Source: Levilactobacillus brevis ATCC 14869 = DSM 20054 (GTDB lineage Bacteria; Bacillota; Bacilli; Lactobacillales; Lactobacillaceae). From it: a stretch of DNA of 64,000 nt. The position numbers were made by a program, and so were the translations under genes. The stretch covers positions 157,722 to 221,721 of the forward strand of contig NZ_AZCP01000001.1 in NCBI RefSeq assembly GCF_001433855.1, written 5' to 3'. Shown one piece after another: positions 799-4,406 of this stretch. Within the stretch, counting starts at the first letter, position 1; each line of letters opens with the position of its first letter. The notes beneath the pieces were generated by a model. It was given only the letters and a program-made list of their open reading frames with translations, searched no databases and was not told the DNA's origin.

Positions 799-3324
799 AT
801 GGCAACCGAATCGCTAGACTTATTTGCAACCGATAACGCTGGGCAACCAGACTTTGTGGTCGGCACTGTCAGTGCGGTCTTTTTTGCCAGTAATGATAGT
901 TTTTATAAGGTGATGCTGGTTAAGGTTTCTGAAACGAGTCTGGATTGGCACGAAGATGAGATTGTGGTGACGGGCAACTTTGCCGATGTTAAGGATGACG
1001 TGACGTACCGCTTTACGGGTAAACGTGTCGAACATCCCAAGTATGGCGTACAGTTTCAAGCCGATAACTATCAAAATGAAACACCGACCTCCCGTAGTGG
1101 GGTGATTGCTTATTTAAGTGGTGATGATTTCCCGGGATTGGGTAAGAAAACGGCAGAAAAAATTGTTGATGCGTTGGGCACCAACGCAATCGAAGAAATT
1201 CTAAATGACAGTGCAGTGTTAGCGCCATTGGGTTTGTCACCTAAAGTGACGGCTACATTGGTGAGCCAATTGCAGACCAATAATGGGATGGAGCAGATTA
1301 TCATTGGCTTGAATGGATATGGATTTGGTAGCTCGCTCGCTGCAGCCATTTATAATCGATATCAAGAAAAAACTTTGGACGTCATTCACGAGAATCCTTA
1401 TCAGTTAGCTGAGGATATTACGGGAGTCAGCTTCAAACGAGCCGACCAGATTGCCACGCAACTGGGTTATGCCGCGGATAAACCAGAGCGACTGCAGGCG
1501 GGACTCTTACAGACCTTGACAGATTTATCAGTTGCTAATGGGGATACCTACACAACGGCCAAACCACTGTTAAACCAAGCGCTGAGCTTGTTGGAAAATT
1601 CGCGCAATGTGCGATTAGAGCCAACTAAGCTGGCCGATCAACTCTTAGAATTGGCTAAACAGCAAAAAGTGGTGGGCGATGACCAACGGATTTACTTGAA
1701 AGCCCTATACGATGCTGAGTGGCAAGTGGCTGAACATTTGCAACGGTTGTTACAAGCGGATACCCAGCAAGCGACGTTCAGTGAAGAGGCGATTGCCAAA
1801 CAACTGCGGATTGTTGAAAAGCAGGCCGATATTGTCTATGATGATTCGCAAACGGCGGCTTTAACGGCAGCCTTGCAAGCAAAAATAATGCTCCTAACCG
1901 GTGGCCCTGGTACCGGAAAAACGACGATTATTCGTGGACTGGTGAACTTATATGCCCGGCTGCATGAGGTCTCTTTGGATATTAATGAGTATAAAGATAA
2001 AACCTTTCCGATTCTGTTAGCGGCCCCCACTGGTCGAGCGGCTAAACGTATGAGTGAATCAACGGGATTGCCAGCGTCAACCATTCATCGGTTATTAGGG
2101 TTAACCGGTCGGGAAACAGATCTCGATGCGGCTACGACCAAAGATTTAGAAGGGGGACTGCTGATTATTGACGAAGTCTCCATGGTCGATGTCTATCTGA
2201 TGAAGACGCTGTTGCGAGCAGTTCCGGTGGGGATGCAGGTCATCTTGGTAGGTGATAAGGATCAGCTGCCATCAGTCGGGCCTGGTCAGGTATTCCATGA
2301 TTTACTGGCGAGTGATCAATTGGCAAAGATTCAACTGGATACGATCTATCGGCAGGGTGATGGGTCATCCATTATTCCGTTAGCACACGCTATCAAGGCG
2401 GGAAAGTTACCAGCCGATTTTACCCAGAACCACGCCGATCGCTCCTTTATCGCGTGCCATGCCAACCAAGTAGAAAGTGTCATTGATCAGATTGTCGCTA
2501 AGGCGCACGCTAAGGGATTCTCTGCCAGTGATATCCAAGTATTGGCGCCCATGTATCGGGGGTCAGCGGGGATTGATCGACTGAACGTGGTGTTACAGAA
2601 TATTTTAAATCCGAAAAAAACGGCCCGGCAAAAGGAAGTCACTTTTCGCAATCAACAGTTTCGGATTGGAGATAAAGTCTTACACCTGGTCAACAGCCCA
2701 GAGAATAATGTTTTTAATGGTGATATTGGGACGATCACGGGGATTGATTTGGCGAGCGATAAAAATAGTAAAGTTAAAAGTGATCAATTAACAATTGCCT
2801 TTGAACAAACCGAGGTAACCTATGCACGTAATGATTGGATTCGGCTGACGCTAGCCTATTGTATGTCGATCCATAAGGCCCAAGGCTCAGAATTCAAACT
2901 GGTCATTTTGCCAATGGTGAGCCAGTATAATCGGATGCTCCAACGGAATCTATTGTATACGGCCGTAACGCGAGCTGCCGATATGTTAATTCTACTGGGA
3001 GAACCGCAGGCGTTTGAAACCTGTGTGACGAATTTATCCGTTAACCGGCATACAACCCTGACAACGCGGATTCAGACGGTCTTAGATCCAGATAAAATGG
3101 CAGCAGTATCGTCAAAGTCGGCTGATGACGCACAACCACAACCGGTGGCGGTAGCTGAACCGGCAGCAGTGGCCGATGCTTCGGTCCCAACGACCGATCA
3201 TGACGTGGCGACTGCCACAGCTCAGGACTATCAATTGACACCGGCGCTAGTTCAGGCGCGACAGATTGATCCAATGATTGGCATGCAAGGCATTACCCCG
3301 CAACAATTTATGCCATCGTTATAA
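799..3324 (+). CDS. recD2: RecD2-type 5'-3' DNA helicase
   Basis: An 841-residue SF1B helicase of the stand-alone RecD2 (YrrC) type found in bacteria without RecBC; it unwinds DNA 5' to 3' in repair and replication-fork maintenance. The N-terminal OB-like region and helix-hairpin-helix (about residues 107-125, GDDFPGLGKKTAEKI) precede the motor. Walker A is GGPGTGKTT (about 367-375) and Walker B is LLIIDEVSMVD (about 452-462). The C-terminal UvrD-like motifs are SIHKAQGSEF (about 690) and YTAVTRA (about 720). After about residue 755 comes a low-complexity Ala/Val/Pro/Asp tail of some 60 residues that ends in a conserved-looking DPMIGMQGITP segment. The ATG at 799 follows AAAGGAGACGA. Confidence 0.95.
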   Translation: MATESLDLFATDNAGQPDFVVGTVSAVFFASNDSFYKVMLVKVSETSLDWHEDEIVVTGNFADVKDDVTYRFTGKRVEHPKYGVQFQADNYQNETPTSRSGVIAYLSGDDFPGLGKKTAEKIVDALGTNAIEEILNDSAVLAPLGLSPKVTATLVSQLQTNNGMEQIIIGLNGYGFGSSLAAAIYNRYQEKTLDVIHENPYQLAEDITGVSFKRADQIATQLGYAADKPERLQAGLLQTLTDLSVANGDTYTTAKPLLNQALSLLENSRNVRLEPTKLADQLLELAKQQKVVGDDQRIYLKALYDAEWQVAEHLQRLLQADTQQATFSEEAIAKQLRIVEKQADIVYDDSQTAALTAALQAKIMLLTGGPGTGKTTIIRGLVNLYARLHEVSLDINEYKDKTFPILLAAPTGRAAKRMSESTGLPASTIHRLLGLTGRETDLDAATTKDLEGGLLIIDEVSMVDVYLMKTLLRAVPVGMQVILVGDKDQLPSVGPGQVFHDLLASDQLAKIQLDTIYRQGDGSSIIPLAHAIKAGKLPADFTQNHADRSFIACHANQVESVIDQIVAKAHAKGFSASDIQVLAPMYRGSAGIDRLNVVLQNILNPKKTARQKEVTFRNQQFRIGDKVLHLVNSPENNVFNGDIGTITGIDLASDKNSKVKSDQLTIAFEQTEVTYARNDWIRLTLAYCMSIHKAQGSEFKLVILPMVSQYNRMLQRNLLYTAVTRAADMLILLGEPQAFETCVTNLSVNRHTTLTTRIQTVLDPDKMAAVSSKSADDAQPQPVAVAEPAAVADASVPTTDHDVATATAQDYQLTPALVQARQIDPMIGMQGITPQQFMPSL

Positions 3325-3419: not shown

Positions 3420-4406
3420 ATGGCAGAACACGTTGAAGCTGGTAAAATGAAGGTATTTGCCTTAAACTCAAACCGGCCACTTGCTGAAAAGATTGCAAAA
3501 GCAGCGGGTGTGACGCTTGGAAAGTCCACCATTAAGCATTTTAGTGATGGTGAAATTCAAATAAGTATTGACGAAAGTATTCGGGGCGATGAATTATTTT
3601 TAATTCAGTCGGTTTCTGATCCAGTCAATACGAATTTGATGGAACTGTTGATCATGGTTGATGCGGCCCGACGCGCTAGTGCCGAAAAGATCAACGTGGT
3701 GGTGCCCTACTATGGCTACTCACGAGCTGACCGAAAAGCCCGTTCTCGTGAGCCAATTACGGCCAAGTTAATTGCCTCCATGATGCAGATGGATGGGGTT
3801 GACCGGGTCATTACGCTGGACTTACATGCGGCGCAATTACAAGGGTTCTTTGATATTCCCGTCGATCATTTACAAAGTGACCGGCTACTGACGAGTTATT
3901 TTGACCAGAATCCACGATTAGCAGATGAAGATATTGTGGTTGTCGCACCAGATCACGCGGGCGTGAGTCGTGCGCGGCGCTTAGCCGAATTATTGGGCGC
4001 CCCAATTGCTATTATCGACAATCGGTCAGAAACAGAAAATGCGGCTCATCCGGATGCGGTGATTGGAAATGTGACTGGAAAGCACGCGATCTTAGTGGAT
4101 GACATCATTGATACGGCAATTCGGATTACGGTGTCAGCGGAAGCGTTGAAACGGGCAGGTGCGGCTGATGTTTTTGCTTGCGCGACGCACGCGGTTCTAT
4201 CCGGCGATGCGACCCAACGAATTGATGATTCAGTGTTGGAAAAGGTCGTAATTACCGATTCGATTCAGTTGCCGGAGGACAAACAGAGCGATAAGTTTGA
4301 AATCTTATCTGTTGGTGAACTATTCGGTAAGGCGATTGATTTGATTTATCATGAGCAACCGGTGGATTCTTTATTCCACGGTTCATTGAAACGTCAAAAG
4401 CAATAA
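3420..4406 (+). CDS. prs2: Divergent ribose-phosphate pyrophosphokinase paralogue (Prs2), catalytic residues substituted
   Basis: A 328-residue protein homologous along its whole length to class I PRPP synthetase, which makes PRPP from ribose-5-phosphate and ATP. The fold-defining motifs are present: FSDGEI (41-46), [12 protein letters not shown] (106-117) and [17 protein letters not shown] (134-150). Several catalytic sites differ. The flexible catalytic loop, normally DKRRP, reads D200-N-R-S-E, so the equivalents of B. subtilis Lys197 and Arg199 are Asn and Ser. The ribose-phosphate loop DDxIDTAGT reads DDIIDTAIR (227-235). The ATP-contact Arg-Gln pair reads Arg-Ala (102-103). It may be an inactive or regulatory paralogue, with the main prs elsewhere. 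The start at 3420 is chosen because AGGGAGG lies seven bases upstream; an in-frame ATG at 3393 has no site. Confidence 0.85.

Follow-up and report, generated by a model that had tools for sequence, protein, structure and literature searches.

The window, i.e., the whole 64,000-nucleotide stretch of DNA analyzed, contains an intact prs2 gene whose 328-residue product (P0001) is related to PRPP synthetase (PRPS). The frame opens with an ATG at 3420, ends with a stop codon at 4404-4406, and is preceded by the ribosome-binding site AGGGAGG; the sequence-only reading of this locus had likewise described an intact gene with a good ribosome-binding site. The gene, its neighbor, and its altered and retained parts are located as follows.

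799..3324, plus strand: upstream neighbor of prs2, which we take from its translation to be a recD2-like gene; this gene is the neighbor in 63 of the 94 Lactobacillaceae Prs2 loci scored
3408..3414, plus strand: ribosome-binding site AGGGAGG ahead of prs2 (sequence)
3420..4406, plus strand: prs2, putative pseudo PRPP synthetase subunit, 328 amino acids (sequence, Pfam, and PDB match; present in 35 of 35 genus genomes)
3540..3554, plus strand: codons for the ATP-hook residues F-S-D-G-E (F40, D42, and E44 in B. subtilis), conserved in 95 of 95 family Prs2 proteins (role from the available text of PMC9232217 and PMC12238573)
3726..3728, plus strand: codon for Ala replacing Gln102 (alignment)
3945..3962, plus strand: pyrophosphate loop APDHAG, with Gly176 replaced by Ala at 3957-3959 (alignment)
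4017..4031, plus strand: catalytic flexible loop D-N-R-S-E in place of D-K-R-R-P (alignment)
4110..4124, plus strand: ribose-5-phosphate loop DTAIR in place of DTAGT (alignment)
4365..4367, plus strand: codon for Asp replacing allosteric-site Ser312 (alignment; role of the human equivalent from the available text of PMC10227994)
4412..4441, plus strand: terminator-like hairpin with a T run 3' of prs2 (3 overlapping matches compared with a mean of 1.5 in shuffles of the region)

Pfam searches show that P0001 has the PRPS domain set (PF13793, PF14572, and PF00156) and no added domain, and its best PDB match is the B. subtilis PRPP synthetase 1dkr (E = 1.8e-110). We aligned the two proteins, numbering residues as in the B. 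subtilis literature, in which DKRRP is K197-R198-R199 (the 1dkr sequence numbering minus one). The alignment confirmed the substitutions that had been read from the sequence: the catalytic loop is DNRSE, with the equivalents of K197 and R199 missing (K197N, R199S); the ribose-5-phosphate loop is DTAIR and does not match DTxGT (G230I/T231R); and the ATP-contact Gln at position 102 is Ala (Q102A). Two further changes had been missed, namely G176A, which alters the pyrophosphate loop, and S312D, which alters the allosteric site. P0001 scores 474.1 with the NCBIfam equivalog model PRK02269 (ribose-phosphate diphosphokinase; cut-off 460), compared to 378.3 with PRK02458 (NF002686), which is under the cut-off of 506. 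Base composition of prs2 is close to that of its surroundings (GC 0.468 compared with 0.458 for the window; GC3 0.445, compared with 0.474 for recD2 and 0.492 for prs1). Horizontal gain of prs2 by this strain is unsupported, given these values and a Prs2 clade that tracks the family. Rfam gave no matches within the 64-kb window, and there is thus no sign of RNA regulation.

The same genome holds a second, canonical prs (prs1; DKRRP, DTAGT), for which the sequence-only reading had suggested a search, downstream of a glmU-like gene; a PF13793 search of the genome (2.47 Mb, 99.99% complete) found no third copy. Prs2 and Prs1 are 60.1% identical, and share 56.8% and 69.8% identity, respectively, with the B. 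subtilis enzyme. The two genes occupy distinct settings across the family, where a glmU-like gene lies directly upstream of 56 of the 72 Prs1 loci scored and a recD2-like gene directly upstream of 63 of the 94 Prs2 loci scored, some of the loci being incomplete because a contig ended or the flank was short. The names of neighboring genes here and below (glmU, recD2, nifS, mnmA, etc.) are ones that we presume from their translations. Separately, three canonical-type Prs1 proteins, L196 and L206 of family f4 and L163 of family f1 (genus g26), carry two extra residues in their catalytic loops (DKRRSVDKMNT, DKRRPVDKKNT).

The two-copy arrangement is widespread. All 35 Levilactobacillus genomes searched contain two prs copies, and the 31 second copies compared, of 35 found, uniformly have N at 197, R at 231, A at 176, D at 312, and A at 102; S, D, or T occupies position 199, and none of the 31 has R there. 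A strain-level mutation is ruled out by this fixation of the loop changes across the genus, and alignment of the orthologs, also proposed by the sequence-only reading, found the catalytic pair missing from every one compared. At the level of the family (Lactobacillaceae), 61 of 75 genomes sampled have two copies and 14 have one. Copies were compared in 70 of these (all but G075, G092, G094, G096, and G098): 58 combine one canonical with one altered copy and 12 have the canonical copy only, while none has an altered copy only and none has two canonical copies. The altered copy occurs in 29 of 36 genera sampled. Prs2 is dispensable, since it is missing from the other seven genera and from one further genome (G039). 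The gene purF is present in 44 of the 75 family genomes and is missing from the window's own. We considered a link between Prs2 and de novo purine synthesis and found none, as purF is similarly frequent in single-copy and two-copy genomes (7/14 vs. 37/61).

Altered copies extend beyond the family. The order sample of 70 genomes includes 61 from outside the family, of which 33 have two copies, and all 24 second copies compared (of the 33) lack the K197-R199 pair. A scan of named genomes returned at least 80 loci, at least 17 of them altered; the altered loci listed include three each in Levilactobacillus, Secundilactobacillus, Lentilactobacillus, and Limosilactobacillus, as well as others in Pediococcus, Lacticaseibacillus, Listeria, and Bacillaceae (two: Neobacillus kokaensis and a Bacillus sp.). 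In these last two, L294 and L314, the loops are of the K197R type and the region around D174 has changed, a hint that pseudo-PRPS proteins arose in bacteria on further occasions. Among the 111 Bacilli genomes from outside the order, 14 are multi-copy, and 10 extra copies were compared in nine of these; nine of the 10 keep both K197 and R199, and L216b lacks R199. Eight divergent PRPS proteins from elsewhere in the Bacilli (families f12, f13, f36, f40, and f41), comprising seven second copies and L218, the sole copy of its genome, show the reverse of the P0001 pattern: K197 and R199 are each kept in 8/8, and the differences lie elsewhere (D42S in 8/8, D103E, D223E). A second PRPS copy is not necessarily degenerate, because these divergent copies keep the catalytic pair.

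Several individual loci depart from these patterns. In two f11 genomes (G320 and G340), the extra prs copies L216 and L217 were found; L216b has R199Q and D223V, L217 has D223V, and L216b and L217 are possibly young pseudo-copies outside Lactobacillales. Genome G211 of family f5 has a tandem prs pair (L180) behind a glmU-like gene, the second member having R199S and G176S. In the Listeriaceae (family f8), the altered Prs2 L192 of genome G193 lacks its start region and has a TGA inside the matched region. Nine loci of f1 genera g2, g7, g15, g16, and g36 (L158-L161 and L164-L168) encode fast-evolving Prs2 proteins with 43-52% identity to P0001, in which the hook residues are retained and, in some, the DHxG motif is also lost.

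Residue conservation across the family divides sharply by site. Eleven residues are unchanged in all 95 family Prs2 proteins, i.e., F40, D42, E44, R54, S86, R101, R109, H135, Q140, D148, and D224. By comparison, retention is 16/95 for K197, 4 for R199, 32 for N203, and 16 for Q102 (K197 and R199 are never both kept, which follows from the definition of the class), and falls to 1 for G176, 4 for G230, 3 for T231, and 2 for S312; D174 and D223 are retained in 88 and 93, respectively. With one row per genus, entropy in Prs2 relative to Prs1 is 5.7-fold higher in the catalytic loop and 9.9-fold higher in the pyrophosphate loop, compared to 1.4-fold in the hook. Among 67 family rows, 8 of 9 hook and allosteric columns show complete conservation, compared to 23 of 65 Prs1-invariant columns (hypergeometric p = 0.0007), and conservation is lower in the own-loop columns than in the others (p = 0.0001); both p values are descriptive, as we chose the columns using papers and an initial inspection of the alignment. 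The changes are concentrated, as judged from these alignments, in the three loops that a PRPS subunit uses for its own catalysis, and the hook that it lends to its neighbor is spared.

The hook is also unchanged in altered copies of other families (14 from f2, f3, f4, and f9, five from f8, and three from f7, excluding the truncated f8 copy L192). The 14 copies of f2, f3, f4, and f9 all have D174 replaced by Lys, H175 by Asn, G176 by Ser, and D227 by Asn; they retain Q102, T231 (14/14), and S312, and so have no basic residue at 231. The three f7 copies retain K197, D174, and T231 and have lost R199. The aligned routes of active-site change differ between families, because these copies lose and keep other residues than the family Prs2 proteins do.

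Within the genus, the dN/dS of prs2 has a median of 0.033 (103 of 465 pairs usable, many being saturated at synonymous sites). Three prs1 pairs give 0.023-0.041, and the same three genomes yield one usable prs2 pair at 0.024. Purifying selection on prs2 is therefore strong within the genus, and pseudogene decay is ruled out by these ratios; the sequence-only reading had already held the gene to be under selection. Between genera, Prs2 is about twofold more distant than Prs1 on average (0.46 vs. 0.24). Distances of the two proteins are correlated (Spearman 0.73, 29 genera), which is expected from shared vertical descent alone.

We used a mixture-model tree of 127 rows to place the altered copies, masking the columns of the RF, pyrophosphate, catalytic, and R5P loops and of the C-terminal allosteric region. 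Each genus contributed at most two Prs2 rows and one Prs1 row; L192 (truncated), L209-L215 and L218 (other class), and L180, L180b, L216, L216b, and L217 (extra or tandem copies, one partner) were left out. All 52 family Prs2 rows form one clade (support 98/94). A single duplication, rather than repeated loop loss, is most likely for the family copies, because they form one clade even with the active-site columns masked. The altered copies of f2, f3, f4, and f9 form their own clade (100/100), grouped with the Prs1 proteins of f2, f3, f4, f6, f7, and f9 (93/83), a grouping that would mean a separate origin; the f7 and f8 altered copies have no firm place. FastTree runs varied with sampling: all 93 altered copies formed one clade (0.948) in the first run, 89 remained together at a support of 0.153 with three f7 rows apart when more outgroups were added, and masking the active-site columns gave groups of 74, 14, 3, and 1, in a run that included long branches. 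In an AU test, one clade for all altered copies gave p = 0.482, the constrained tree being 0.02 log units better than the free tree, and these alignments accordingly do not reject the possibility that every altered copy in the order traces back to a single event.

Gene order bears on the same question. The window genome has the order nudix - x - nucleosidase - nifS - DUF1831-like - mnmA - mutase - TPR - recD2 - prs2, and the f3 genome with locus L235 has nudix - x - nucleosidase - two genes - prs2 - nifS - DUF1831-like - mnmA (homology by BLAST). The prs2 genes therefore lie at opposite ends of one neighborhood common to both genomes, which hints at one origin. The f7, f8, and f2 loci examined lack that nudix-nifS-mnmA neighborhood.

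These patterns can be set against what is described for PRPP synthetases. The ATP site is completed by an F and a D from the neighboring subunit (F35/D37 in E. coli; PMC9232217), with a 'FLAG' region of subunit A being the counterpart of this hook (PMC12238573), whereas the other subunit supplies the RF, PP, CF, and R5P loops (PMC9232217, PMC12238573). Three subunits build the allosteric site (PMC10227994, PMC6332680), where the human equivalent of Ser312 touches the beta-phosphate of allosteric ADP (PMC10227994). Human K194A and R196A variants, equivalent to K197 and R199, have no detectable activity, which the authors note agrees with B. subtilis mutants (PMC4363470); the statements here and below from these sources reflect the parts of their text that were available.

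We infer, with a probability of about 0.6, that Prs2 serves PRPP synthetase as a pseudoenzyme subunit, associating with Prs1 and modulating its activity. There is good support for Prs2 being unable to form PRPP at an active site of its own: K197 and R199 are lost and the pyrophosphate and ribose-5-phosphate loops remodeled, and we take the site to be dead because the human K194A and R196A enzymes are inactive. Prs2 retains the fold, the residues that contact the nucleotide, the ATP hook, and most of the three-subunit allosteric site. It would assemble with canonical Prs1 into mixed oligomers and complete Prs1 active sites, in one direction only, thereby altering the number of Prs1 active sites and the response of Prs1 to ADP and phosphate; the altered response of mixed oligomers is predicted because Ser312 is lost. 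A non-catalytic subunit of mixed oligomers would fit because Prs2's own loops are lost, the shared residues are kept, and Prs1 is present in every family genome compared. The same hook and nucleotide residues would, however, be kept by an ATP-binding Prs2 homo-oligomer, such that they leave mixing with Prs1 unproven. More tentatively, a single early duplication in Lactobacillales may have produced a regulatory pseudo-subunit, retained in the majority of Lactobacillaceae genera and in several further families of Lactobacillales, that forms mixed hexamers and lends its hook one way, with the gene ratio setting PRPP capacity and ADP sensitivity, as an independent counterpart of PRPSAP.

The homo-oligomer possibility is the most serious alternative, although we consider it unlikely. 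Prs2 would then form an oligomer of its own and bind ATP or ADP as a nucleotide-sensing regulator of some other target. With R101, H135, D224, and the hook in 95 of 95 proteins, the ATP site could be complete in such an oligomer, and prs2 has a recD2-like neighbor at 63 of 94 loci and lies apart from prs1. However, among 70 family genomes Prs2 never occurs without Prs1, it has no added domain, and its retention of residues of the three-chain PRPS allosteric site would be most easily explained by PRPS-type oligomers.

It is rather improbable that Prs2 is still a PRPP synthetase, i.e., a specialized isozyme with low or conditional activity. The 474.1 score with PRK02269 (cut-off 460) fits an enzyme, as does the retention of H135 and R101 (95/95), D223 (93/95), D174 (88/95), and K197 (16/95). 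These alignments leave room for some residual activity, because D223 and D224 are nearly always kept alongside D174 and, in 16 proteins, K197. Nonetheless, Ala at either loop position abolishes detectable activity of the human enzyme (PMC4363470), position 199 drifts between S, D, and T inside one genus, and the 14 f2, f3, f4, and f9 copies all have Lys for D174 and Asn for D227.

The sequence-only reading had offered a non-catalytic partner of the main Prs, like the mammalian PRPP synthetase-associated proteins (PAPs), or an enzyme with changed chemistry. The former provides what is probably the best explanation, while the latter is disfavored. An enzyme that catalyzes a new reaction or acts on a new substrate might use the basic residue at 231 to bind a different phosphate ligand, as 84 of 95 family proteins have R or K at this position and five of five f8 copies have R, compared to T in 101 of 101 canonical copies. 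Yet few parts of Prs2 vary as much as the catalytic loop, which has no new conserved catalytic residue: because its entropy rises from 0.48 bits in Prs1 to 2.72 bits in family Prs2, there is no sign of a new catalytic center. Moreover, position 197 is in most cases occupied by N, K, Q, or R, and T231 is kept in 14/14 copies of the f2, f3, f4, and f9 clade, hence no new site is shared; we regard changed chemistry as quite improbable. That Prs2 is a decaying duplicate without function, as its twofold greater between-genus distance (0.46 vs. 0.24) and absence from 7 of 36 genera could suggest, is very improbable in view of the dN/dS of 0.033, intact frame, presence in 29 of 36 genera, and unchanged hook.

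The supply of PRPP gates the synthesis of purines, pyrimidines, NAD, histidine, and tryptophan. If Prs2 is indeed a dead subunit that controls PRPP synthetase, such control also arose outside eukaryotes, and a bacterial PRPSAP-like subunit would be open to simple deletion and reconstitution tests. In lactic acid bacteria, many genes annotated as 'ribose-phosphate diphosphokinase', a label carried over into metabolic models, would then probably encode a non-enzyme. The NCBIfam model PRK02458 is a case in point: its name asserts this activity, yet the f4 second copy L189 scores 623.3 with this equivalog (cut-off 506) and lacks the same catalytic pair. We take family f4 to be what looks like Streptococcaceae.

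In a search of openly available papers, we found no report of a catalytically altered second Prs in Lactobacillales; supplements and subscription journals may contain one. In their available text, PMC11681623, PMC8704671, PMC7693651, and PMC3616900 do not describe a second Prs, although the last places prsA, copy unstated, within the Lactobacillaceae PurR regulon. The available main text of a PRPS survey has no words beginning Lactobac, Streptococc, or Listeria, and PRPS surveys, in the parts available, report such pseudoenzymes in eukaryotes only. Bacteria and archaea typically express one PRPS (PMC12238573).

Compared with class I PRPP synthetases (B. subtilis 1dkr, E. coli, and human PRPS1), Prs2 shares the domains, ATP hook, nucleotide residues, and most allosteric residues, whereas Lys197, Arg199, Asn203, Gly176, Gly230, Thr231, and Ser312 are lost or drifting across the family. 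In yeast, Prs1/Prs5 offers the case of a PRPS homolog whose catalytic loop is disturbed and that matters through association with another Prs (PMC9221600); there the loop is disturbed by an insertion, whereas in Prs2 it is disturbed by point changes. Animal PRPSAP1 and PRPSAP2 (PAP39/PAP41), along with other eukaryotic PRPS pseudoenzymes, offer a further parallel: like Prs2, they are duplicates of the enzyme that coexist with an active version and have lost the same catalytic-loop positions. Human PAPs are reported to be negative regulators (PMC4363470), yet their loss slows the growth of cultured cells (PMC12238573). PRPSAP2 lacks D171, K194, R196, N200, and T225 (PMC12238573); family Prs2 proteins have mostly lost the equivalents of K194, R196, and N200 and mostly kept those of D171 and T225. 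The long non-homologous catalytic-loop insertion that is the hallmark of PRPSAP is absent from Prs2; the P0001 loop has normal length, and insertions of a few residues occur in some genera only. Prs2 is also a bacterial duplicate, and its association with a partner is putative. P0001 matches PRPSAP2 (2ji4) at 2.4e-57 in PDB, far behind B. subtilis Prs at 1.8e-110, and the masked tree, which holds no eukaryotic rows, places family Prs2 among Lactobacillales Prs. Bacteria are described as having evolved new PRPS classes and eukaryotes PRPS pseudoenzymes (PMC13252144, in the text available), a contrast on which Prs2 bears directly: on our best reading of the sequence comparisons, it is a bacterial PRPS pseudoenzyme resembling PRPSAP and convergent with the eukaryotic PRPSAP proteins.
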